NCBI RefSeq assembly: GCF_004342905.1 | Contig: NZ_SMAN01000015.1 | Location: 1-64,000, forward strand | Direction: 5' to 3' | DNA: 64,000 bases | Source: Melghiribacillus thermohalophilus | GTDB lineage: Bacteria > Bacillota > Bacilli > Bacillales > Alkalibacillaceae | In this document: positions 53,217-63,904 of the stretch, in pieces | Numbering within the stretch: position 1 is the stretch's first letter | Layout of the letters: the number at the start of each line of letters is the position of its first letter | Notes under the pieces: model-generated | Databases searched by the model: none | Told to the model about the DNA's origin: nothing | The model's input: only the letters and a program-made list of their open reading frames with translations | Position numbers and translations under genes: made by a program

Positions 53217-53307
53217 AACATGTTTTTGAAGTTCACAATACCACAATGGGTATAGGAGTAATACCACCAAATAAAGAATTTCTCCCTATTGAATGTTTAT
53301 TTTTTTC

Positions 53308-53352
53308 TTGACAAATGTTCCGGGGTCTTATAATATACCACATAGGGTATAT
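53308..53352 (+). promoter_or_regulatory. Sigma-A promoter overlapped by a CsoR/CstR-type operator
   Basis: TTGACA at 53308-53313, 17-base spacer, TAATAT at 53331-53336. The operator TATACCACATAGGGTATA (53334-53351) overlaps the -10 element, so binding would block transcription of the dsrE-grx unit. The same palindrome class occurs at 54337-54351 and 56093-56109. Confidence 0.75.
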
Positions 53353-53405
53353 GGAAAGAACCCGAAAAAAATTCATGAAAAAAAGATTAAGGGGGAAATT
53401 TAAAC

Positions 53406-53795
53406 ATGAAAGTAGCGATTATTGCAGCAAATGGAGGCGCATTTGACGCGTATAAAGTTTTCAATATTGCAACAGCTGCTGCTGCAGCGGATGGCGAAGT
53501 TGAAATCTTTTTCACATTTGAAGGTCTGAATCTTATTCACAAAGAAGCACACAAACAACTCCCAATGCCTGAAGGAACCGAACACTTTAAAGAAGGATTT
53601 GAAAAGGCAAATGTACCTTCCATTCCTGAACTGATCGAAATGGCTCAGGACCTTGGCGTGAAATTTGTTGCCTGCCAGATGACAATGGATGTAATGGGTC
53701 TTTCGAAAGAAGATTTCGTTGATGGTATTGAAGTTGGAGGAGCAGCTACTTTCCTGAACTATGCGAAAGATGCTGATATTTCTCTAACCTTCTAA
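53406..53795 (+). CDS. DsrE/DsrF-like sulfur-relay protein
   Basis: A 129-residue DsrE-family protein. The conserved active cysteine is C90 (KFVACQMTMDVMG). DsrE/TusD-like proteins accept persulfide sulfur from rhodaneses or TusA in the cytosol. Strong promoter with a CstR-type operator upstream; the glutaredoxin gene follows 56 bases later in the same unit. Confidence 0.9.
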   Translation: MKVAIIAANGGAFDAYKVFNIATAAAAADGEVEIFFTFEGLNLIHKEAHKQLPMPEGTEHFKEGFEKANVPSIPELIEMAQDLGVKFVACQMTMDVMGLSKEDFVDGIEVGGAATFLNYAKDADISLTF

Positions 53796-53850
53796 GAAAT
53801 ATAGAATGGATTTGGAAGCAAGGGTCTTTTTCCGGGAAGGAGGCGATAAG

Positions 53851-54084
53851 ATGGTTACCGTTTACACAACAAGCACCTGCCCATACTGTAATATGGTTAA
53901 AACCTTTTTAGAACAAAAGGGTGTGGAATATAAAGAAGTAAATGTTGAACGGGATCCGATTGCAGCCCAGCGCCTGGTGCAGACAACAGGTGAAATGGGA
54001 GTACCTCAAACAGAAATTAATGGAAAATGGGTACTCGGTTTTGACCCTCAGGCCATTACTGAACTGCTTGAAGAAAATAACTAA
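53851..54084 (+). CDS. Glutaredoxin family protein
   Basis: A 77-residue glutaredoxin with C10-P-Y-C13 (TSTCPYCNMV) and the conserved TGEMGVPQTEI cis-proline segment. Reduces mixed disulfides or persulfides; its partner thiol in bacilli could be bacillithiol. ATG at 53851 with GGAAGGAGG upstream; the longer frame is not used. Terminator at 54098-54138. Confidence 0.92.
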   Translation: MVTVYTTSTCPYCNMVKTFLEQKGVEYKEVNVERDPIAAQRLVQTTGEMGVPQTEINGKWVLGFDPQAITELLEENN

Positions 54085-54097
54085 GGTATATGGAACA

Positions 54098-54138
54098 TGA
54101 TGGATACCTCCTCTGCGGGGGTGTCCATATCTTTGATT
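54098..54138 (+). terminator. Terminator after the glutaredoxin gene
   Basis: Arms ATGGATACC and GGTGTCCAT with C/G-rich inner part, then ATCTTTGATTTTT. Confidence 0.8.
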
Positions 54139-54307
54139 TTTCAACTATTTCGGAGGGTAAAGGATAAAGAATCAAGTCTTGCGCCCGGAAATAGCAATAC
54201 ACATTAGGCTAAAAACGGCAACAGCTAGGATCACTGTTATGAAATAAGGATATATTCCTGAAAACATGTATGATAGGATTGTTGATCCATTATTTGTGTT
54301 TCAGGAG

Positions 54308-54353
54308 TTGACGGGATATTTTTTTTCGTTTACCCTATACCCATAGGGGTAAT
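54308..54353 (+). promoter_or_regulatory. CsoR/CstR-type operator before the rhodanese unit
   Basis: TATACCCATAGGGGTA at 54336-54351, flanked by a second CCCTA half. TTGACG at 54308-54313 is a plausible -35. Same palindrome class as at 53334 and 56093. Confidence 0.75.
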
Positions 54354-54383
54354 AGGAGAAACGAAAAAGAAAGAGGGAGTTAT

Positions 54384-54749
54384 ATGGATAATCTTTTAAC
54401 CTTTCTTCTGATCGGACTTGCTGCTCTGTTCATTTTGAGGCGAATGATCCCACCAAAAGGTGTGAAGCAGATGTCTGCATCAGAATTAAATAAAGAGTTA
54501 AAGCTAAACAAAAAAAACAAACAATTTATTGATGTAAGAACACCCATTGAATTTCAGGGAAATCATGTTAAAGGTTTTAAAAACATACCTTTGCAATCGC
54601 TGAAATCCAGGCTGAGCGAATTAGATCCGGAAAAAGAAGTTGTCGTGATTTGTCAGAGTGGGAATCGAAGCATGGTAGCTGCCCGAATATTAATCAAGCA
54701 TGGGTTTGAAGTCACCAATGTTCAGGGTGGCGTAAATGCCTATCGGTAA
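54384..54749 (+). CDS. Membrane-anchored rhodanese
   Basis: A 121-residue protein with an N-terminal helix (LLTFLLIGLAALFILRRM) and one rhodanese domain whose active Cys is C90 in VICQSGNRS. Sulfurtransferase; the anchor places the domain at the inner membrane face. AGAGGGAG upstream. First gene of a four-gene sulfur-transfer unit running to 55958. Confidence 0.9.
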   Translation: MDNLLTFLLIGLAALFILRRMIPPKGVKQMSASELNKELKLNKKNKQFIDVRTPIEFQGNHVKGFKNIPLQSLKSRLSELDPEKEVVVICQSGNRSMVAARILIKHGFEVTNVQGGVNAYR

Positions 54750-54791
54750 CGTATGATATACAATTAGAGAATGAAAAGGAGGTTGATATAG

Positions 54792-55088
54792 ATGGATACG
54801 ATTACAGCAAAAGAAGTTGAAGAAATGATCAACAGTGGAAAAGAAGTTCATATTATTGATGTCCGTGAAGCTGCAGAAGTTCAACAGGGAGCTATTCCCG
54901 GAGCGGTTAATATTCCGCTTAGCCTGCTGGAATTCCGCGCACACGAATTAGATAAAAATAAAGAGTATGTCATGGTATGCCGTTCCGGTAACAGAAGTGG
55001 GTTAGCTACTCAATATTTGAATGCCCAGGGATATCATGCGGTAAATATGGTCGGCGGCATGATTGACTGGGAAGGACCAGTAGAATAA
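54792..55088 (+). CDS. Single-domain rhodanese
   Basis: A 98-residue cytosolic rhodanese with C63 in MVCRSGNRS and the usual DVRE start. Moves sulfane sulfur to thiol acceptors. AGGAGG upstream; 42 bases after the preceding gene. Confidence 0.94.
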   Translation: MDTITAKEVEEMINSGKEVHIIDVREAAEVQQGAIPGAVNIPLSLLEFRAHELDKNKEYVMVCRSGNRSGLATQYLNAQGYHAVNMVGGMIDWEGPVE

Positions 55089-55111
55089 ATAAAAAACTAG
55101 GGGGATTTGAA

Positions 55112-55672
55112 ATGAAGGCAGATTTTACAGTTGATGCAAGTGGTCTGACTTGCCCGATGCCAATTGTCAAAACAAAAAAAGCCATGAACAATCTGGAGGG
55201 AGGTCAGGTTCTGGAAGTTCTGGCAACTGATAAAGGATCGATTGCTGACATTCAAGCATGGGCTGAAAGTACAGGACATCAATATCTTGGAACGAAAGAA
55301 GACGGCGAGGTATTAAAACACTATATCCGCAAAGCTTCTGAAGGAGAAGAAAAGGAAGAAAAAAAATACGATAAAACGATTGATAACAACGGATTAAAAA
55401 GCAAACTAAACGAAGATATAACCATTATAGATGTCCGTGAACCGGCAGAATATGCCTTTGGCCATATTCCAGGGGCCTTGTCCATTCCAATGGGAGAGTT
55501 AGAAGAGCGTTTGAATGAAATAGAAAAGGACAAAGACGTGTATGTTGTCTGCCGTACGGGCAACCGCAGCGATATGGCTGCGCAAAAATTATCTGAAAAG
55601 GGATACCATGTCATTAATGTGGTACCAGGCATGTCCGAATGGGATGGGCCGATTGAAAAATCTGATTCATAA
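55112..55672 (+). CDS. TusA-rhodanese fusion protein
   Basis: A 186-residue two-domain protein: a TusA-like domain (residues 5-72) with the CPMP persulfide site (C14), a charged linker (SEGEEKEEKKYD), and a rhodanese domain (about 92-182) with C147 in VVCRTGNRS. The fusion should let one protein take sulfur from a persulfide and pass it on. AGGGGG precedes the ATG. No stop or truncation. Confidence 0.95.
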   Translation: MKADFTVDASGLTCPMPIVKTKKAMNNLEGGQVLEVLATDKGSIADIQAWAESTGHQYLGTKEDGEVLKHYIRKASEGEEKEEKKYDKTIDNNGLKSKLNEDITIIDVREPAEYAFGHIPGALSIPMGELEERLNEIEKDKDVYVVCRTGNRSDMAAQKLSEKGYHVINVVPGMSEWDGPIEKSDS

Positions 55673-55730
55673 TACTGACAGATGGTTTCATTCAACTTAA
55701 TCAAAAATTTCTATAAGGAGTGTGTATAAA

Positions 55731-55958
55731 ATGGAAGCAAAAAAAGTACTGGATGTAAAAGGGCTTTCCTGTCCAATGCCAATTGTTAAAACAAAAAAAG
55801 CAATCGATGAACTGGATTCCGGAGATATTCTAGAAGTACATGCAACAGATCCAGGTTCAAAAAACGATTTGACAGCATGGACAGAATCAAGTGGACATGA
55901 ACTGCTTGAGAGTAAAGAAGAAGACGGCGTTTTCAAATACTGGGTTAAAAAAGGTTAA
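55731..55958 (+). CDS. TusA-like sulfur carrier protein
   Basis: A 75-residue TusA/YedF/SirA-fold protein with C14 in GLSCPMPIVKTKK, nearly the same as the TusA domain of the preceding fusion. ATG at 55731 with AAGGAG upstream. Probable last gene of the rhodanese unit. Confidence 0.93.
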   Translation: MEAKKVLDVKGLSCPMPIVKTKKAIDELDSGDILEVHATDPGSKNDLTAWTESSGHELLESKEEDGVFKYWVKKG

Positions 55959-56083
55959 TATTTCAGGGGTGCGATGGTGATCATCGTACCCTTTCCTTCG
56001 TGAATTTGTGATGAAAAGATTTTAGCGGATGTCTCAATTCCACCACTCCCCAAATATGTACCCCTGAATGATAATATTTTTAT

Positions 56084-56112
56084 TGCGTTTTATATACCCT
56101 ATAGGGTAAAAT
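56084..56112 (+). promoter_or_regulatory. Promoter of the sulP unit with CsoR/CstR-type operator
   Basis: TTGCGT at 56084-56089, 17-base spacer and TAAAAT at 56107-56112. The spacer holds a TATACCC/AGGGTA palindrome centred near 56101, of the same class as at 53334 and 54336. Confidence 0.7.
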
Positions 56113-56209: not shown

Positions 56210-57868
56210 ATGTTGAAAAAAATCATTCCGGCAATAGACTGGTTAAGCCATTATCATAAAAATGATTTGCGTGGGGATTTATCAGCAGGACTCATCGTTG
56301 CTGTCATGCTGATCCCTCAGGGAATGGCATATGCAATGCTGGCAGGATTACCTCCTGAAATCGGCCTTTATGCCTCCACGATCCCTTTAATTATTTATGC
56401 GTTGTTCGGTTCATCCCGTCAACTGGCTGTCGGACCGGTTGCAATGGTATCCCTTCTTGTTTTTACCGGGGTATCACAGCTGGCAGAACCCCAAACTGAA
56501 GAATTCGTGTCTTATGCACTGCTTTTGGCTCTAATGGTTGGGGTCATACAGTTTGCCCTCGGTATTTTTCGGTTAGGATTTTTAGTAAATTTCTTATCCC
56601 ATGCCGTCATCAGTGGATTTACATCTGCTGCTGCTTTAATTATCGGACTTAGTCAGTTAAAGCATATATTAGGTTTTGATCTGCCTAAAGACAGCATTTT
56701 TGTCATTTTATATGAGGCGATCAGGGGGATAGGAGAAACGAATCTGACGGCTCTTATCATTGGAGTTGGCAGCATCGCAGTCTTGCTCTTTTTTAAAAAA
56801 AAGTTGCCGAGATTTCCTGCACCACTGGTTGTGGTTGTTCTTGGTACTGTGTTTACGTATCTATTTAAATTAAATGAAACAGCGGGAGTAAACATTGTAG
56901 GTGACATTCCACAAGGGATTCCAAGTCTTTCATTGCCTGCATTTGACTTTGCATCCATCGGGGCGCTGCTCCCCATTGCTCTGACGATTTCCTTTGTGGG
57001 ATTTATGGAGTCCATCGCTGTTGCCAAGGCCATTGCAGCGAAGGAGAAATATAAAATAAACTCTAATCAGGAGTTAAACGGATTAGGTCTGGCGAACATA
57101 GTAGGTTCCTTTTTCTCTGCTTATCCGGTTACAGGAGGATTTTCTCGTTCAGCGGTGAACTATCAGGCTGGTGCCAGAACAGGTCTTGCTTCCATTATTA
57201 CGGCAGTGATTATTCTCGTTGCGTTGCTGTTTTTGACCCCATTGCTTTACTATCTGCCACAGGCTGTGCTTGCTGCTATCATTATGGTTGCGGTTTTTGG
57301 TTTGATTGACATTAAGGAAGCTGTTCATATTTTCAAAATCAGACAGGCTGATGGCTGGACATTAATCATTACAGCTATTGCAACGCTGACTCTTGGTATT
57401 GAACAGGGAATTTTAATCGGGATCGCTGTTTCACTGATCCTGTTCATCTGGAGAAGTGCCTATCCGCATGTAGCAGAACTCGGTTATGTGGAACAGGAGG
57501 ATGTATTTAAAAATATAAAACGATTCCCGGATGCCAAAACCTATGACCATACCCTGATTTATCGTATCGATGCTTCATTATATTTTGCTAACATGGCTTT
57601 TCTTGAAGAAAAACTTCGGGAAGCTATTGCTGAAAAAAATGCAAGCAATGTCATCCTTGATTTTTCCGCAGTCAATGCCATTGATGCAGTGGCCATTGAT
57701 GAATTAGAGGAAATTATTGAAAGTTATAGAGATTCCGGTGTAAAATTTTATATAGCAGGTATGAAAGGGCCAGTCAAGGATCTGGTTAAACGGGCCGGAT
57801 GGGATGAAAAATATGGTGATAAAATAAACTTCCTAACGGTCAAACAGGCTCTTAATACAGTACAGTAA
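56210..57868 (+). CDS. SulP-family anion transporter
   Basis: A 552-residue SulP (SLC26) permease with about 12-14 membrane segments (MLIPQGMAYAMLAGLPPEIGLYAS is the SulP signature near residues 37-60; NQELNGLGLANIVGSFFSAYPVTGGFSRSAVN later) and a C-terminal STAS domain (about 440-545). SulP proteins move sulfate, bicarbonate or other anions. The next gene is a beta-carbonic anhydrase 13 bases away, which favours bicarbonate, but the sulfur-relay neighbours and shared operator favour a sulfur oxyanion; the substrate is therefore open. GGAGG upstream. Confidence 0.92.
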   Translation: MLKKIIPAIDWLSHYHKNDLRGDLSAGLIVAVMLIPQGMAYAMLAGLPPEIGLYASTIPLIIYALFGSSRQLAVGPVAMVSLLVFTGVSQLAEPQTEEFVSYALLLALMVGVIQFALGIFRLGFLVNFLSHAVISGFTSAAALIIGLSQLKHILGFDLPKDSIFVILYEAIRGIGETNLTALIIGVGSIAVLLFFKKKLPRFPAPLVVVVLGTVFTYLFKLNETAGVNIVGDIPQGIPSLSLPAFDFASIGALLPIALTISFVGFMESIAVAKAIAAKEKYKINSNQELNGLGLANIVGSFFSAYPVTGGFSRSAVNYQAGARTGLASIITAVIILVALLFLTPLLYYLPQAVLAAIIMVAVFGLIDIKEAVHIFKIRQADGWTLIITAIATLTLGIEQGILIGIAVSLILFIWRSAYPHVAELGYVEQEDVFKNIKRFPDAKTYDHTLIYRIDASLYFANMAFLEEKLREAIAEKNASNVILDFSAVNAIDAVAIDELEEIIESYRDSGVKFYIAGMKGPVKDLVKRAGWDEKYGDKINFLTVKQALNTVQ

Positions 57869-57881
57869 GTGGTGGTGAATC

Positions 57882-58448
57882 ATGAAAGAAGAAACAATTT
57901 TCCAGAAAAATGAGGAATTTATCCAGGAGTTTTTATCTGAGAATCCGGATTATTTCAACAAATTGAAGGAGGGGCAGAACCCGGACTTTTTTGTCATTGC
58001 ATGTTCAGATTCCCGGGTAAGTCCTTCTGTTGTTGCCAAAATGCCGCCGGGTCATTTTTTTACACACCGCAACATAGCCAATCAGGTTTCTGAAGATGAT
58101 GAAAGCTTTAATGCAGGATTATATTATGCATTAAAACATTTAAAAGTAAAAACTGTCATGGTTAAGGGACATACCGCATGCGGTGGTGTCGCAGCTGCCT
58201 GGAATGAAAATGACGAATCTGAATTGCAACCCTGGCTCTCAAAGGTAAAGGAAAGTTTACCTGAAAAGGGAGGAAACCAAGACTGGAGTCCAGAAGAACT
58301 TTCCAGACGTAATGTCTTAAAGCAGGTAAACAATTTAAAAAACCATCCTATTTATCAAAAATATGGTCAGGATGTCAAAATCCTTGGAGTGCTCTTCCAT
58401 TTGGAGTCAGGAAAATTGGAAAAAGTTACGGAATATAAACCACGATAA
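57882..58448 (+). CDS. Beta-class carbonic anhydrase
   Basis: A 188-residue enzyme. Zinc ligands C41, H97 and C100 and the D43/R45 pair of CSDSR are intact, along with GHTACGG. Interconverts CO2 and bicarbonate in the cytosol. Closely coupled to sulP. ATG with GTGGTG upstream. Terminator at 58455-58496. Confidence 0.95.
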   Translation: MKEETIFQKNEEFIQEFLSENPDYFNKLKEGQNPDFFVIACSDSRVSPSVVAKMPPGHFFTHRNIANQVSEDDESFNAGLYYALKHLKVKTVMVKGHTACGGVAAAWNENDESELQPWLSKVKESLPEKGGNQDWSPEELSRRNVLKQVNNLKNHPIYQKYGQDVKILGVLFHLESGKLEKVTEYKPR

Positions 58449-58612: not shown

Positions 58613-59266
58613 TTAATCATCAGCAGTCAATGGTTTGATTCGGGTAATCAGCTCGCGTGCTATCATTTCAGGGTCCCTGGAATGACTGATGGTTGAAATA
58701 ACGGCTACTCCATCTGCTCCGGCCTGAATAACCTGATCAAGATTACTGGATTTAATTCCGCCAATTCCCGTTATAGGAATGGTAATTCCATCACTCCTTA
58801 TTTCCCGAATGACTTCAGGTCCCCTTACTTCTCGGCAATCTTTTTTTGTTCGGGTGGGAAACATGGGACCAACCCCTAAATAGTCGGCCCCGTTTTTGAC
58901 AGCCTCACGGGCTTCTTCAGTGTTGTGGGCGGAAATACCGAGAATTTTCCTGCCCAGCATTCGGCGGACTTCTAATGGTGAGTCGTCTTCCTGACCGATG
59001 TGAATTCCATCAGCGTCGATTTCAAGAACTAAATTCACATCATCATTCACAATAAAAGGAATGTTGTATTCACGGCAGATGGTTTTTAGCTGAAGGGCCA
59101 GCTCAAATTTTGCTCTGCCTCTTCTTGAACCTTTTCCTTTTTCCCGAAACTGAAAACAGGTAATGCCGCCTCTGATGGCTTTCATTAAAGTCTGTTCTGG
59201 ATTTTCCCTGCAGTTTGAACTTCCCATGACAAAATACAACTGTAATTGTTTACGGCTTATCATCAT
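58613..59266 (-). CDS. thiE: Thiamine-phosphate synthase
   Basis: A 217-residue TIM-barrel enzyme that joins HMP-PP and the thiazole phosphate to make thiamine monophosphate. FQFREKG, FIVNDDVNL, DGIHIGQED and TGIGGI motifs are complete. The start overlaps the thiD stop by four bases. Last gene of the minus-strand thiamine operon. Confidence 0.94.
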   Translation of the reverse strand: MMISRKQLQLYFVMGSSNCRENPEQTLMKAIRGGITCFQFREKGKGSRRGRAKFELALQLKTICREYNIPFIVNDDVNLVLEIDADGIHIGQEDDSPLEVRRMLGRKILGISAHNTEEAREAVKNGADYLGVGPMFPTRTKKDCREVRGPEVIREIRSDGITIPITGIGGIKSSNLDQVIQAGADGVAVISTISHSRDPEMIARELITRIKPLTADD

Positions 59267-60072
59267 GGTCTTCCCATCCTGTATGTTTGAAAGGCCCAGT
59301 GGTTGGTAGGTCCGTGTCCACTACCTATGTTCAATTCATGTTCAATGGCAGCCTGTATAAAAGATTTTGCTGTGCGAATGGCATTCAAAACGTTTTCACC
59401 TTTAGCCAGTTCAGCAGTTATGGCAGCTGAAAACGTGCATCCGGTTCCATGGGTATTTCTCGTTTGAATCCGTTGTCCTCGAAGCCATACGAAATCGTTC
59501 CCATCGAAAAATAAGTCTATTGCTTCTAAATTATCCTCATGATGGCCTCCTTTGATGACAACACTTCTGCATCCAAGGACTAGCAGCATTTCGGCTGCCT
59601 GTTTGCGGTCAGCATTGGATTTAATTTTCATACCCGTTAGCACTTCCGCTTCAGGGATATTTGGTGTAATGACCGTGGAAAGGGGAATTAGGTTTGTTTT
59701 TAGTGTTTCAATGGCTTCTTTCTGTAAAAGAGAAGCCCCTCCTTTTGCGATCATGACAGGATCTACGACCACATTGGACCAGCCGTATGTTTTGATTTTT
59801 TCGGCAACCGTTTGTATGATGGATGAACGATATAACATGCCTGTTTTAATAGCCTGCGGTTTCAAATCTTCTGCAATGGAATCTAATTGTTGACGGACGC
59901 ATTCATTGGAAGCAGGAAAAACGCCCTGAACACCCCGTGTATTCTGGGCAGTCAGTGCGGTAATCGCTGACATGCCAAATACGTTCAGTTCCTGAAAGGT
60001 TTTTAGATCAGCCTGTATACCGGCTCCGCCTCCGCTGTCTGAACCGGCAATGGTTAATGCTTTTGGAATCAT
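59263..60072 (-). CDS. thiD: Bifunctional HMP/HMP-phosphate kinase
   Basis: A 269-residue ribokinase-fold kinase: ALTIAGSDSGGGAGIQADLKT at the start and GTGCTFSAAI near the C-terminus. Makes HMP-PP for thiamine. ATG at 60072 (GAAAGGA upstream) is preferred over the longer frame; 19 bases after thiF. Confidence 0.95.
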   Translation of the reverse strand: MIPKALTIAGSDSGGGAGIQADLKTFQELNVFGMSAITALTAQNTRGVQGVFPASNECVRQQLDSIAEDLKPQAIKTGMLYRSSIIQTVAEKIKTYGWSNVVVDPVMIAKGGASLLQKEAIETLKTNLIPLSTVITPNIPEAEVLTGMKIKSNADRKQAAEMLLVLGCRSVVIKGGHHEDNLEAIDLFFDGNDFVWLRGQRIQTRNTHGTGCTFSAAITAELAKGENVLNAIRTAKSFIQAAIEHELNIGSGHGPTNHWAFQTYRMGRP

Positions 60073-60091
60073 GGACAAGCTCCTTTCTGAT

Positions 60092-61135
60092 TTAGGCTCC
60101 AAAGTAACGGTAATATACGTTTTTGGCTGTCTCGATACGATTTGTTCCATGAACCAATACACGGCCATCCTGAAAACAGACAATCCGGTAAGGTTCTTCT
60201 AACTGTACAGATAATAAATAGGGATTTCGTTTGGTTGTAAAGCCAAGACCCTGAAAGTGAGATTCCCATTGTTCCAGATTCATAGTTTGATGAACTCCAG
60301 ATCTGATTTGGACCGTATCTCTTCCACATAAAACAGCTGCTTTCGTCTGAAGTTGAAAATCGAGATGAGGATAAGCGCGTTTTCTCCCGCAGCTTAAACA
60401 GGAATCCTGTTTTAATGGTTCAATGGCGATCTCACTATGTTCATTGTTCCAGAGATCAAAACAAATAAGAGTATTTCGTATTGCAGCCCGGTTTTCTGTC
60501 AGAATTTTTAATGCTTCGGCCGTTTGTACGGCAGTCACCATTTGAACAACGGGGGCGATGATTCCTTCTGAATCACAGGTCGCCCCGGTTAAGGGGATTT
60601 GATCAAGCAAACATGCTAAACACGGGGTCTTACCAGGGATGATATTACAGGAAATTCCATAAGCTCCCAGGCACGCTCCATAAATCCATGGAATGTTCTG
60701 TTTTTGGCAGAAATCATTGATTAGGAAACGAATATCAAAATTATCGGTAGCATCTATGATGAGATCCACATCGGAAAAACGTTCCAGCACTTCCGGGGTT
60801 ACATCGGCCACTACACCTGAAATCTCGGTGGAACTGTTGATTTGCTTCAGTCGTTTTTCAGCAGCAACAGCTTTCGGTAATGATTGTGCAGCATCACTTT
60901 CGGTATATAGCTGCTGGCGCTGTAGGTTACTCTCTTCTACATAATCCCGGTCTGCAATGGTGACCTTTCCTGCACCAGATCGGACAAGCATTTCGGCATT
61001 TCCAGATCCCAGGGCTCCAGCACCGATGATCAAAACATGTTTATTCCGCAATCTTTTTTGTCCTTTCACCCCGATGGGGGAAAACAAGATCTGCCGGGAG
61101 AAGCGTTTCAAACTTCCCCAATTGGTTTGCTCCAT
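60092..61135 (-). CDS. thiF: ThiF/MoeB-family adenylyltransferase
   Basis: A 347-residue E1-like enzyme that adenylates the C-terminus of ThiS. GAGALGSGNAEMLVRSG binds ATP; CLACLLDQIP and SCLSCGRK carry the zinc cysteines. It is longer than E. coli ThiF, with a C-terminal extension of about 80 residues typical of bacilli. Start ATG at 61135; the Shine-Dalgarno GGAGGTG is formed by the codons for the ThiS glycine tail. Confidence 0.9.
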   Translation of the reverse strand: MEQTNWGSLKRFSRQILFSPIGVKGQKRLRNKHVLIIGAGALGSGNAEMLVRSGAGKVTIADRDYVEESNLQRQQLYTESDAAQSLPKAVAAEKRLKQINSSTEISGVVADVTPEVLERFSDVDLIIDATDNFDIRFLINDFCQKQNIPWIYGACLGAYGISCNIIPGKTPCLACLLDQIPLTGATCDSEGIIAPVVQMVTAVQTAEALKILTENRAAIRNTLICFDLWNNEHSEIAIEPLKQDSCLSCGRKRAYPHLDFQLQTKAAVLCGRDTVQIRSGVHQTMNLEQWESHFQGLGFTTKRNPYLLSVQLEEPYRIVCFQDGRVLVHGTNRIETAKNVYYRYFGA

Positions 61136-61136
61136 C

Positions 61137-61340
61137 TCACCCACCTCCGACAAATTTTACGAGCTCCAGCCTGTCGCCATTTTGAACAGGTGTAGATGTA
61201 AATGTATTTTTATCAAGTATTTCGCCGTTTTTTTCTACAATGATGAATCCGGGATCGAGGTTCAGTTCCTGAAGGAGATCCAAAATAGTTTGCAAGTGAT
61301 GCGGAACAGACTTTTCCTGGCCATTAATCATCAGCTTCAT
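61137..61340 (-). CDS. thiS: Sulfur carrier protein ThiS
   Basis: A 67-residue ubiquitin-fold carrier ending in FVGGG, whose terminal Gly is adenylated by ThiF and then thiocarboxylated for thiazole synthesis. ATG codons at 61346, 61343 and 61340 lie in a row after AAAGGAGAG; 61340 gives the usual MKLMINGQ start. Overlaps tenI by 17 bases and lies two bases from thiF. Confidence 0.93.
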   Translation of the reverse strand: MKLMINGQEKSVPHHLQTILDLLQELNLDPGFIIVEKNGEILDKNTFTSTPVQNGDRLELVKFVGGG

Positions 61341-61965
61341 CATCATCTCTCCTTTCAAAAAATGTCTGATAGGCTTCAAAATAATCACGGGATGCTTTTA
61401 AAGGATGACTGGCATCAAAAATCCCGGACATTACCGCCAGGCCAGCTGCCCCTGTTCGGGAAATTTGCTCAATATGGTCAGGTTTGATCCCGCCCACAGG
61501 AATGACGGGAATGGAAACAGCTTGCACAATTTCTTTCAGGGCGTCTATTCCTTTTGCTTTTAAACCGGATTTGCTCATGGTCGGAAACACATGGCCGTAA
61601 ACGATATAATCAGCTTGGGAGTGAACACCTTTTCTCGCCCCGTTGAGGTCATGGACAGAACGCCCGATCATAAATTCTGGAAACGATTGTTTAACTGCTT
61701 CAACCGGAAGAGAACGTTCTCCTAAATGGACTCCCTTTGTCCCGGATACTAAGGCCAGATCTGCTCTGTCATTGATGATGATTTTGTCTGCGGGAACCCC
61801 TTCTTCAATGATCCGCTCAATCATACGAAATACCGTCAGGGGAGATTTTTGTTTTTCCCGTATATGGATAAAGTGGATATATGGATGAATGTCCCGGAAT
61901 AGAGTGACGAGTTCATTTGAGTTCCATTGATCGTTAGATATAAGGTGAATGCCCCTGCACATCAC
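61324..61965 (-). CDS. tenI: Thiazole tautomerase TenI
   Basis: A 213-residue ThiE paralogue: HLISND, FIHIREKQ, KIIINDRADLA and IPVGGIKP match TenI, which aromatises the thiazole carboxylate in B. subtilis rather than making thiamine phosphate. A true thiE is present at the operon end, so this is the tautomerase. Overlaps thiH by four bases. Confidence 0.88.
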   Translation of the reverse strand: MMCRGIHLISNDQWNSNELVTLFRDIHPYIHFIHIREKQKSPLTVFRMIERIIEEGVPADKIIINDRADLALVSGTKGVHLGERSLPVEAVKQSFPEFMIGRSVHDLNGARKGVHSQADYIVYGHVFPTMSKSGLKAKGIDALKEIVQAVSIPVIPVGGIKPDHIEQISRTGAAGLAVMSGIFDASHPLKASRDYFEAYQTFFERRDDDEADD

Positions 61966-63086
61966 CAGATCTCCTCACTGAGCATTTCCCAGTCTTTTAT
62001 GACCGGCCAATATCCCTTTTCTTTGAGCAATTGTTTTATTTCTTCCACCGATCGGCCGTCAGACAGTTCAAACTGACTGTTTTTCCCGCTGCTTGCTTTA
62101 GCATATCCCCCGACCGTTGTTGAAGATTCAGCAGACATTTTCGTTACACCGAGAGGAATGAGGTGGTTCCTGAGCTGTGGCGATTCCCTGGTGGATAGGG
62201 TAATCCCTGACCGCGGCATAAACAGGCGATAAGCAAGGATCGATTGTACAAGGTTTCGATCTGTTACATGTACATTTGGCTGGAAACTGCCCAGGTGGGG
62301 CTTCAAACGCGGAAAAGATACACTGATTTCTGTATCCAGATACTTTTTTTGTAAATATTGGGCATGCACCCCTGTAAAAAATACTTCTTTTCGCCAATCA
62401 TCAAGTCCGAGAAGAGCACCAATATTGACACTTCTCATTCCTGCCATACATCCCCGTTCAGGTGTGTCCAGCCTGAATCGGTAATTCCGCTTTGGCCCTT
62501 TCACGTGTATGTCCTTGTAAATATTTTCATTGTAAACTTCCTGATACACCGTCAATCCATCACACCCTGATCGAATCAGCGTTTTGTATTCTTCAGTTTG
62601 TAACGGCTGCACCTCAAGTGAAATAGAAGAAAAATAATTAGCCAGAAGTTGCGTTGCTTCATTTAAATATTCAACAGGTGCGTGAATTCGGGATTCGCCA
62701 GTGAGCAGGATGATATGTTCAATGCCCTTGTCTTTGATTGCTTTCGCTTCTTTCTCGATATCATCAAGAGTCAACTTTGTTCGGGGAAATACATGGTCGA
62801 AACTAAAACTGCAATACTTGCATTTGTTCACACAATAGTCTGATATATAAAGGGGAAGAAACAGCTGCATGGTTCGTCCAAAGTGCTGTACGGTCAGCTG
62901 ATGGGCTTTCTGAGCCATTTCTTCCAGATACCCTTCGGCAGCAGGGGAGAGGAGAACGAGAAAATCCTCATGATGTAATGGCCTTGTCCTGGCCAGCACC
63001 TGTTCCACGTCCGCAGGTTGAATTTGCATAAACATTTCTTCAAAGGGAAGATGTTTTAAATCCGTATATACGTCAAAGAAACTCAA
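61962..63086 (-). CDS. thiH: 2-Iminoacetate synthase ThiH (radical SAM)
   Basis: A 374-residue radical SAM enzyme that cleaves tyrosine to dehydroglycine for the thiazole ring. The [4Fe-4S] cysteines are C85, C89 and C92 (YCVNKCKYCSF). Many aerobic bacilli use the oxidase ThiO instead, so ThiH here implies an oxygen-sensitive route. AGGAGG precedes the ATG. Confidence 0.94.
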   Translation of the reverse strand: MSFFDVYTDLKHLPFEEMFMQIQPADVEQVLARTRPLHHEDFLVLLSPAAEGYLEEMAQKAHQLTVQHFGRTMQLFLPLYISDYCVNKCKYCSFSFDHVFPRTKLTLDDIEKEAKAIKDKGIEHIILLTGESRIHAPVEYLNEATQLLANYFSSISLEVQPLQTEEYKTLIRSGCDGLTVYQEVYNENIYKDIHVKGPKRNYRFRLDTPERGCMAGMRSVNIGALLGLDDWRKEVFFTGVHAQYLQKKYLDTEISVSFPRLKPHLGSFQPNVHVTDRNLVQSILAYRLFMPRSGITLSTRESPQLRNHLIPLGVTKMSAESSTTVGGYAKASSGKNSQFELSDGRSVEEIKQLLKEKGYWPVIKDWEMLSEEIW

Positions 63087-63127
63087 AAAAATACCTCCTT
63101 AACCGGACAGAGTTGCGCCCGGGCCAT

Positions 63128-63904
63128 TTAATTCGATGAATGTAAAAATCCGGTGAGTGGTGATGATGCATTAGCCATTTGTGAGGTTGGACCGATACCC
63201 GCAACATAGCCCCGACGTCCTGCAACAACGGCTTCATGAAAAGCCTGAGCCATTTGTACTGGATTTTTTGCAGTGGCAATCGCCGTGTTAACCAGTACAG
63301 CATCTGCCCCCATTTCCATTGCTTCAGCTGCATCAGAAGGCCTCCCGATTCCTGCATCAACAATGATGGGCACTTCCAGTTCATCAATCATGATTTGAAT
63401 CATCTCTTTCAGACGAATGCCTCGATTGGAACCAATCGGAGCGCCGAGGGGCATAACGGCAGCGGCACCCGCATCCTGTAATGCTTTTCCTGCCAGCAGA
63501 TCAGGATTCATATATGGAAACACCTCAAATCCTTCTTGAACCAGTGCTTTTGTAGCTTTAATCGTCTCATAGTTATCTGGAAGCAAATATTTCTGATCGG
63601 GGATGACTTCGATTTTTATCCAATTTCCTAAACCACTGGCTTTTGCCAGACGGGCAATCCGTATGGCTTCTTCTGCATTTCTGGCTCCTGAAGTATTTGG
63701 CATAAGCTGCACATGACCGGGGATGTCATTTAAGATATAGGGATCTTCTTCATTCAGATTTACACGTCGAAGGGCAACCGTGACCACTTCTGCATTCGAG
63801 GAAAGAATCGCCTTTTTCATCACCTGGTGATCCGAAAATTTACCCGTCCCTACAAAAAGTCGACTAGTTAAGGTTTTATCTCCAACCGTCCACTGTTCAT
63901 TCAT
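63128..63904 (-). CDS. thiG: Thiazole synthase
   Basis: A 258-residue TIM-barrel enzyme that builds the thiazole phosphate from DXP, ThiS-thiocarboxylate and iminoacetate. VGTGKFSD, the Schiff-base lysine region [10 protein letters not shown] and [25 protein letters not shown] are complete. The ATG overlaps the tenA stop (ATGA). Confidence 0.95.

Follow-up and report, generated by a model that had tools for sequence, protein, structure and literature searches.

Does a palindrome that recurs ahead of sulfur genes in this 64-kb stretch of DNA (the window, taken at its full length) mark promoters under the control of a persulfide sensor of the CstR type, and, if so, where is the repressor encoded and what might be the role of the SulP-family transporter behind one of the sites? 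The pattern TATACC-N5-GGGTA has exactly three matches in the window, starting at 53334, 54336 and 56093, just 5′ of dsrE, the first rhodanese gene and sulP, as the first-pass annotation had it for the dsrE-grx, rhodanese-TusA and sulP-CA units. (A spacing of four, TATACC-N4-GGGTA, gave chance hits only and was rejected as the wrong pattern.) All three of the palindromes then listed are real, but the number was an undercount, there being about ten genome-wide and a fourth within the window: the shorter core, TACC-N5-GGGTA, yields six strand-hits at four places (53239, 53336, 54338 and 56095). The fourth site, O0, is 97 bp 5′ of the first, and the only reading frame across it is a spurious one of 67 aa in reverse. 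All four lie within 2.9 kb, each 5′ of sulfur genes (Table 1). Shuffled versions of the window have a mean of 0.20 hits to the core, and none of 100 reaches the observed 6.

The overlap with promoter elements that had also been proposed holds at O1, which is on the -10 of a promoter detected by scanning and having both its -35 and its -10 conserved in the sister species, G012. At the other two sites it holds by eye but not by scan: O2 overlaps a promoter-like element, TTGACG at 54308, and O3 sits in the spacer between TTGCGT (56083) and TAAAAT (56107), neither of these two promoters passing the scan. By family match, the targets of the sites in the window and beyond include sulfane-sulfur families: rhodanese, TusA, DsrE and MBL-type dioxygenase. 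Further downstream, minus-strand genes that look like two of thiE, thiD, thiF, thiS, thiH and thiG (named from sequence appearance) occupy 58613-63904. Just past the window, adjoining thiamine genes, is a second dsrE and TusA-rhodanese pair (C15:64953-65931; L023:954-1932), whose DsrE is 76% identical to the first and which has no CstR-type operator.

Table 1. Predicted operators, promoter and genes of the window (top) and candidate targets elsewhere in the genome (bottom). PWM, matrix score; G012, sister species.
Feature	Position	Strand	Basis and remarks
O0, CstR operator-like site, upstream tandem site of dsrE unit	53239-53252	.	TACCACAATGGGTA; PWM 18.2; block partly conserved in G012
O1, predicted CstR operator, overlaps -10	53334-53351	.	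TATACCACATAGGGTATA; PWM 23.1; present in G012
O2, predicted CstR operator 5′ of rhd1	54336-54351	.	TATACCCATAGGGGTA; PWM 20.5; identical in G012
O3, predicted CstR operator 5′ of sulP	56093-56108	.	TATACCCTATAGGGTA; PWM 20.9; inside promoter-like spacer
Predicted sigma-A promoter of dsrE-grx	53308-53336	+	promoter scan: TTGACA 53308, 17 nt, TAATAT 53331-53336
DsrE-family sulfur carrier	53406-53795	+	protein family match
Glutaredoxin-like (YruB family), same unit as dsrE	53851-54084	+	protein family match
Terminator-like hairpin closing dsrE-grx unit	54100-54128	+	
Rhd1, membrane-anchored rhodanese	54384-54749	+	family match; N-terminal hydrophobic stretch read from sequence
Rhd2, single-domain rhodanese	54792-55088	+	protein family match
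TusA-rhodanese fusion (YrkF-like)	55112-55672	+	protein family match
TusA (YrkI-like)	55731-55958	+	protein family match
SulP-family anion transporter, in place of relatives' CstR-operon TauE	56210-57868	+	family match, cluster comparison
Beta-class carbonic anhydrase (Pro_CA), after sulP	57882-58448	+	protein family match
Two rhodanese-MBL (RhdMBL) genes	C18, C19		site conserved in G012
DUF302 divergent from znuA-znuC-znuB-zur	C35; L020:109-3697		site conserved in G012
FhuF-like gene after menE	C30; L022:4677-5493		site recurs in G012
Membrane protein, then TlpA/ResA-like thioredoxin	C1:3633; L294:240-1520		PWM 18.6; genes read from sequence
CapA-like gene, weaker site	C27:24946		PWM 14.3; conserved in G012
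Peroxiredoxin, weak site	C18:66744		PWM 10.4; conserved in G012

The probable repressor and its operator

The genome (3.0 Mb in 46 contigs, 99.9% complete) encodes exactly two CsoR-family (PF02583) proteins, L001 on contig C19 and L002 on C6. The window has none, in agreement with the first-pass annotation, and of the two locations this had left for the repressor, elsewhere or in the contig's missing flank, the former stands (C6) and the latter does not, these two genes being the only ones. A copA-like gene comes after L001, which carries the Cys, His and Cys of copper sensors. L002 keeps both sensor cysteines, C34 and C63 in the numbering of the alignment's first row, which are invariant there, and has Asn in place of copper CsoR's His; the sequence at this point is KNLETC where CsoR has ERHTRHC. 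Its nearest solved relative by sequence is 7mq1/7mq2/7mq3, deposited as csoR, which we take to be the CstR of Streptococcus pneumoniae. By these features L002 is CstR-like and L001 is a predicted copper CsoR, so the search for CsoR/CstR genes that had been advised, with absence of a CstR-like protein to count against persulfide control, has found such a protein.

Association of the motif with cstR does not depend on a motif chosen in advance. When all gapped palindromes with 5-base halves were counted, with no prior motif, in the 300 bp 5′ of cstR in 20 genomes of other genera, the top ones, TATAC-N8, ATACC-N6 and TACCC-N4, proved to be one and the same site and were present in 16-17 of the 20 promoters, shuffles giving at most 8. 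With a matrix (PWM) built from 49 sites around cstR-locus genes of other genera, the window's four sites take the first four places (23.1, 20.9, 20.5 and 18.2, the next being 10.8), with the reservation that the training sites were chosen with the same consensus and are to that extent circular, only the palindrome search being free of this. Random Markov-3 sequence totalling 19.2 Mb has three sites scoring at least 18 and no pair within 3 kb; with simpler random windows, one of 20 reached 21.4, so a lone high score proves little.

The genome's copper-type csoR, with its copA, raises the prospect that the palindromes are CsoR operators and that the genes answer copper, especially as operators of the two regulators resemble each other. 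Aligned copper CsoR operators from Streptomyces, Staphylococcus, Listeria and Bacillus have, like the window sites, G/C tracts within a TAC/GTA inverted repeat, but the spacing reported for several is TAC-X9-GTA (PMC3902906). The window sites all have TAC-N8-GTA (4/4), as do 20 of 23 cstR promoters, whereas TAC-N9-GTA is found in seven of eight copper-CsoR promoters (the genome's own and those of seven relatives; L001 and L174-L180). On the matrix the seven relatives' promoters come out below 0, none of them containing the window motif, and nothing at the genome's own csoR locus exceeds 5; the motif accompanies cstR and sulfur genes across genomes. No copper efflux gene (copA/copZ) was found behind the sites, either in the window or among the genome-wide targets. 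Copper control is accordingly very unlikely, and CstR is preferred on account of the N8 spacing and of a motif that is tied to cstR promoters across 20 other genomes. N8 versus N9 amounts to a sequence rule by which, in this family, operators of CstR and of copper CsoR can be told apart.

Binding by an unrelated sulfane-sulfur repressor of the ArsR type, such as SqrR/BigR, is highly improbable. Repressors of this kind are reported to govern comparable genes in proteobacteria (PMC5823870, PMC9995734), but in 20 genomes the motif is a mark of cstR's own promoters, and its TAC/GTA inverted repeat is the one seen in operators of the CsoR family (PMC3902906). With a CstR-like gene present, the N8 spacing, and the motif at cstR promoters of other genomes, the CstR-operator reading gains support, and the four window sites are very probably, by prediction from sequence, docking sites of CstR. 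The site upstream of cstR itself, TACTTATGGGGGTA, occurs in both species and is weak (PWM 11.2 here, 8.5 in G012), leaving autoregulation unsure.

A predicted regulon spread over contigs

The rest of the genome was scanned with ATACC-N6-GGTAW and the hits rescored with the matrix. Those scoring at least 14 are all intergenic or 5′ of real genes, while those below 11 are, with one exception, inside genes. The plain 9-base pattern is no commoner than its control (20 hits genome-wide, 43 for the reversed control), so single hits mean little, and position, matrix score and conservation decide. That count is what can be said for the window sites being chance palindromes. Against it are the placement of four sites in 2.9 kb, all 5′ of sulfur genes, the positions of high- and low-scoring hits in the genome scan, and conservation, the sites 5′ of dsrE, rhd1, sulP, both RhdMBL genes, DUF302 and the FhuF-like gene being in the same places in G012. 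Together with the shuffles, the matrix ranking and the Markov-3 control, these lead us to count a chance origin as refuted, its probability being practically nil. Some exact matches to the pattern fall within coding genes, among them rplS and a splB-like gene; these are unconserved in G012 and mostly low-scoring (splB-like 15.0), and were rejected.

Of the genes at the candidate targets, znuC, znuB, zur and menE are named from sequence appearance. The site of the FhuF-like gene is a perfect palindrome, TACCCATATGGGTA, conserved in G012 with a changed centre, and the protein has a C-terminal CC-x10-C-x2-C. The operators 5′ of DUF302 and of the FhuF-like gene were not found outside the genus; DUF302 is itself located inside the CstR cluster in several relatives. 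The site between DUF302 and znuACB-zur raises the possibility of a direct tie from persulfide to zinc uptake. A link between sulfide and zinc is reported in Staphylococcus aureus (PMC5480029), and an operator so placed would give it a direct route. In G012, a CstR-type site is also seen 5′ of a membrane protein that resembles a TDT-type transporter and has no Pfam match (L147:728-1514).

In nearly all other genomes of the family cstR adjoins tusA, dsrE, rhodanese and RhdMBL genes in a single cluster. Here it is on C6 and its predicted targets are spread over contigs, from which it follows that cstR has become detached and the regulon scattered. It appears that in this genus cstR left the cluster, which was split into separately controlled units, making this a case in which a CstR operon has become a dispersed regulon.

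SulP in the slot of TauE

A SulP orthologue is present in seven of 22 family genomes (68-100% identity) and absent from 15. The CstR-type cluster contains TauE in all 15 SulP-less genomes and in none of the seven with SulP, a mutual replacement in 22/22, though each of the seven keeps TauE paralogues elsewhere. Outside this genus SulP and TauE mostly share one slot, directly after RhdMBL, with four TauE genomes having tusA in between. Five of the SulP genomes are from outside the genus; in these, SulP comes after the RhdMBL gene and there is no adjacent carbonic anhydrase gene, so the latter is not essential to the slot. A single genus, g2, contains both states, and on the RhdMBL protein tree the exchange needs four changes, at least three of them forced by well-supported branches. 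Across Bacillota an operator is within the flanks (up to 5 kb each side) of 17 of 22 SulP loci versus one of 58 other loci. The exclusion is not universal, as two Planococcus loci (L070 and L078) carry both transporters.

TauE has been described as possibly transporting sulfite and as a frequent associate of sqr/pdo clusters (PMC9918477). That SulP exchanges places with it in the CstR cluster suggests, taken by itself, that SulP does TauE's job and exports an oxidised sulfur product. The protein scores 536 bits against TIGR00815 (cut-off 380) and reaches the Pfam Sulfate_transp and STAS cut-offs. Its closest solved relative by sequence is a plant protein, Sulfate transporter 4.1, a likeness that would fit a sulfate-like substrate and leaves direction unfixed.

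For the most part, known SulP proteins import or exchange their substrates, and SulP-CA pairs are read as bicarbonate systems. An alternative that must be taken seriously, while falling short of probable, is thus that the sites are CstR operators as proposed but that SulP-CA serves uptake of bicarbonate or sulfate. The carbonic anhydrase gene directly 3′ of sulP is in keeping with this, and so is a match to NCBIfam's BicA model, albeit far under its cut-off (187.8 versus 880 bits). It is less easily reconciled with SulP being in seven family genomes where the 15 others have a cluster TauE, with the same post-RhdMBL slot in five SulP genomes outside the genus and at least three exchanges on the tree, or with those five operons being without an adjacent carbonic anhydrase gene. 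Export thus remains the preferred function for SulP.

A broader proposition joins two parts: that in halophilic Bacillales SulP (in some lineages with carbonic anhydrase) has repeatedly changed places with TauE in the role of exporter, under CstR control, of the sulfur oxyanion that persulfide oxidation yields, and that this genus' broken-up regulon, with its free-standing cstR, reaches znuACB-zur and an FhuF-like iron-sulfur protein. For both to be correct we would put the chances at about even. No description of a SulP/TauE exporter exchange was found in the literature searched. SulP in TauE's place offers a genetic test of which transporter removes sulfite after persulfide oxidation.

Mechanism and known systems

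It is highly likely overall that the organism's own CstR binds the four sites and is released by persulfide so that the sulfur units are co-induced, with SulP most likely exporting. We infer binding, inducer and release, enzymatic steps and transport direction as follows. Reduced CstR would sit on the 14-bp TACC-N6-GGTA core across the -10 or spacer and block RNA polymerase. Once persulfides or polysulfides accumulate, the two cysteines of CstR would be cross-linked, the protein would come off the DNA, and the units would be expressed together. DsrE, TusA and the rhodaneses would then carry sulfane sulfur, glutaredoxin and the TlpA-like thioredoxin would reduce persulfides, and the rhodanese-MBL proteins would oxidise the sulfur, with SulP, together with carbonic anhydrase, most likely taking over from TauE the export of the oxidised product. 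As to the source of persulfide, a 265-residue part of G012's sulfide:quinone oxidoreductase (SQR) has no match in this genome. In G012 (L141) the order is sqr, a small gene, operator, pdo; the pdo here (L182, C5:7072-8475) is 86% identical to G012's but without operator. Histidine kinase-like and response regulator-like genes follow it on C5.

Among the closest known systems is that of Bacillus licheniformis, whose CstR-like repressor, YrkD, responds to sulfane sulfur and regulates dsrE, tusA and rhodanese homologues; as here, its regulon has dsrE, TusA, a rhodanese fusion, MBL/PDO genes and an exporter (PMC9918477). It differs in being one 11-gene cluster led by yrkD, where here cstR is alone on another contig and the operators are scattered, and in having TauE (YrkJ), where here there is SulP-CA and no SQR was found. 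Targets of the S. aureus cst operon, shared with the present system, are TauE, rhodanese/TusA and PDO-type proteins. S. aureus CstR is likewise a CsoR-family persulfide sensor with two cysteines, but direct control by it is reported for probably just one operon (PMC5480029), in contrast to the approximately ten predicted promoters here, those of DUF302/znuACB-zur and the FhuF-like gene included. TTHA1953 of Thermus thermophilus is also a CsoR-family regulator connected with sulfur oxidation; its consensus, TACNNTACNNNNGTANNGTA, is different and it controls sox genes (PMC10318464). This is a known kind of system, a predicted CstR regulon, in scattered form and with an exchange of its putative exporter.
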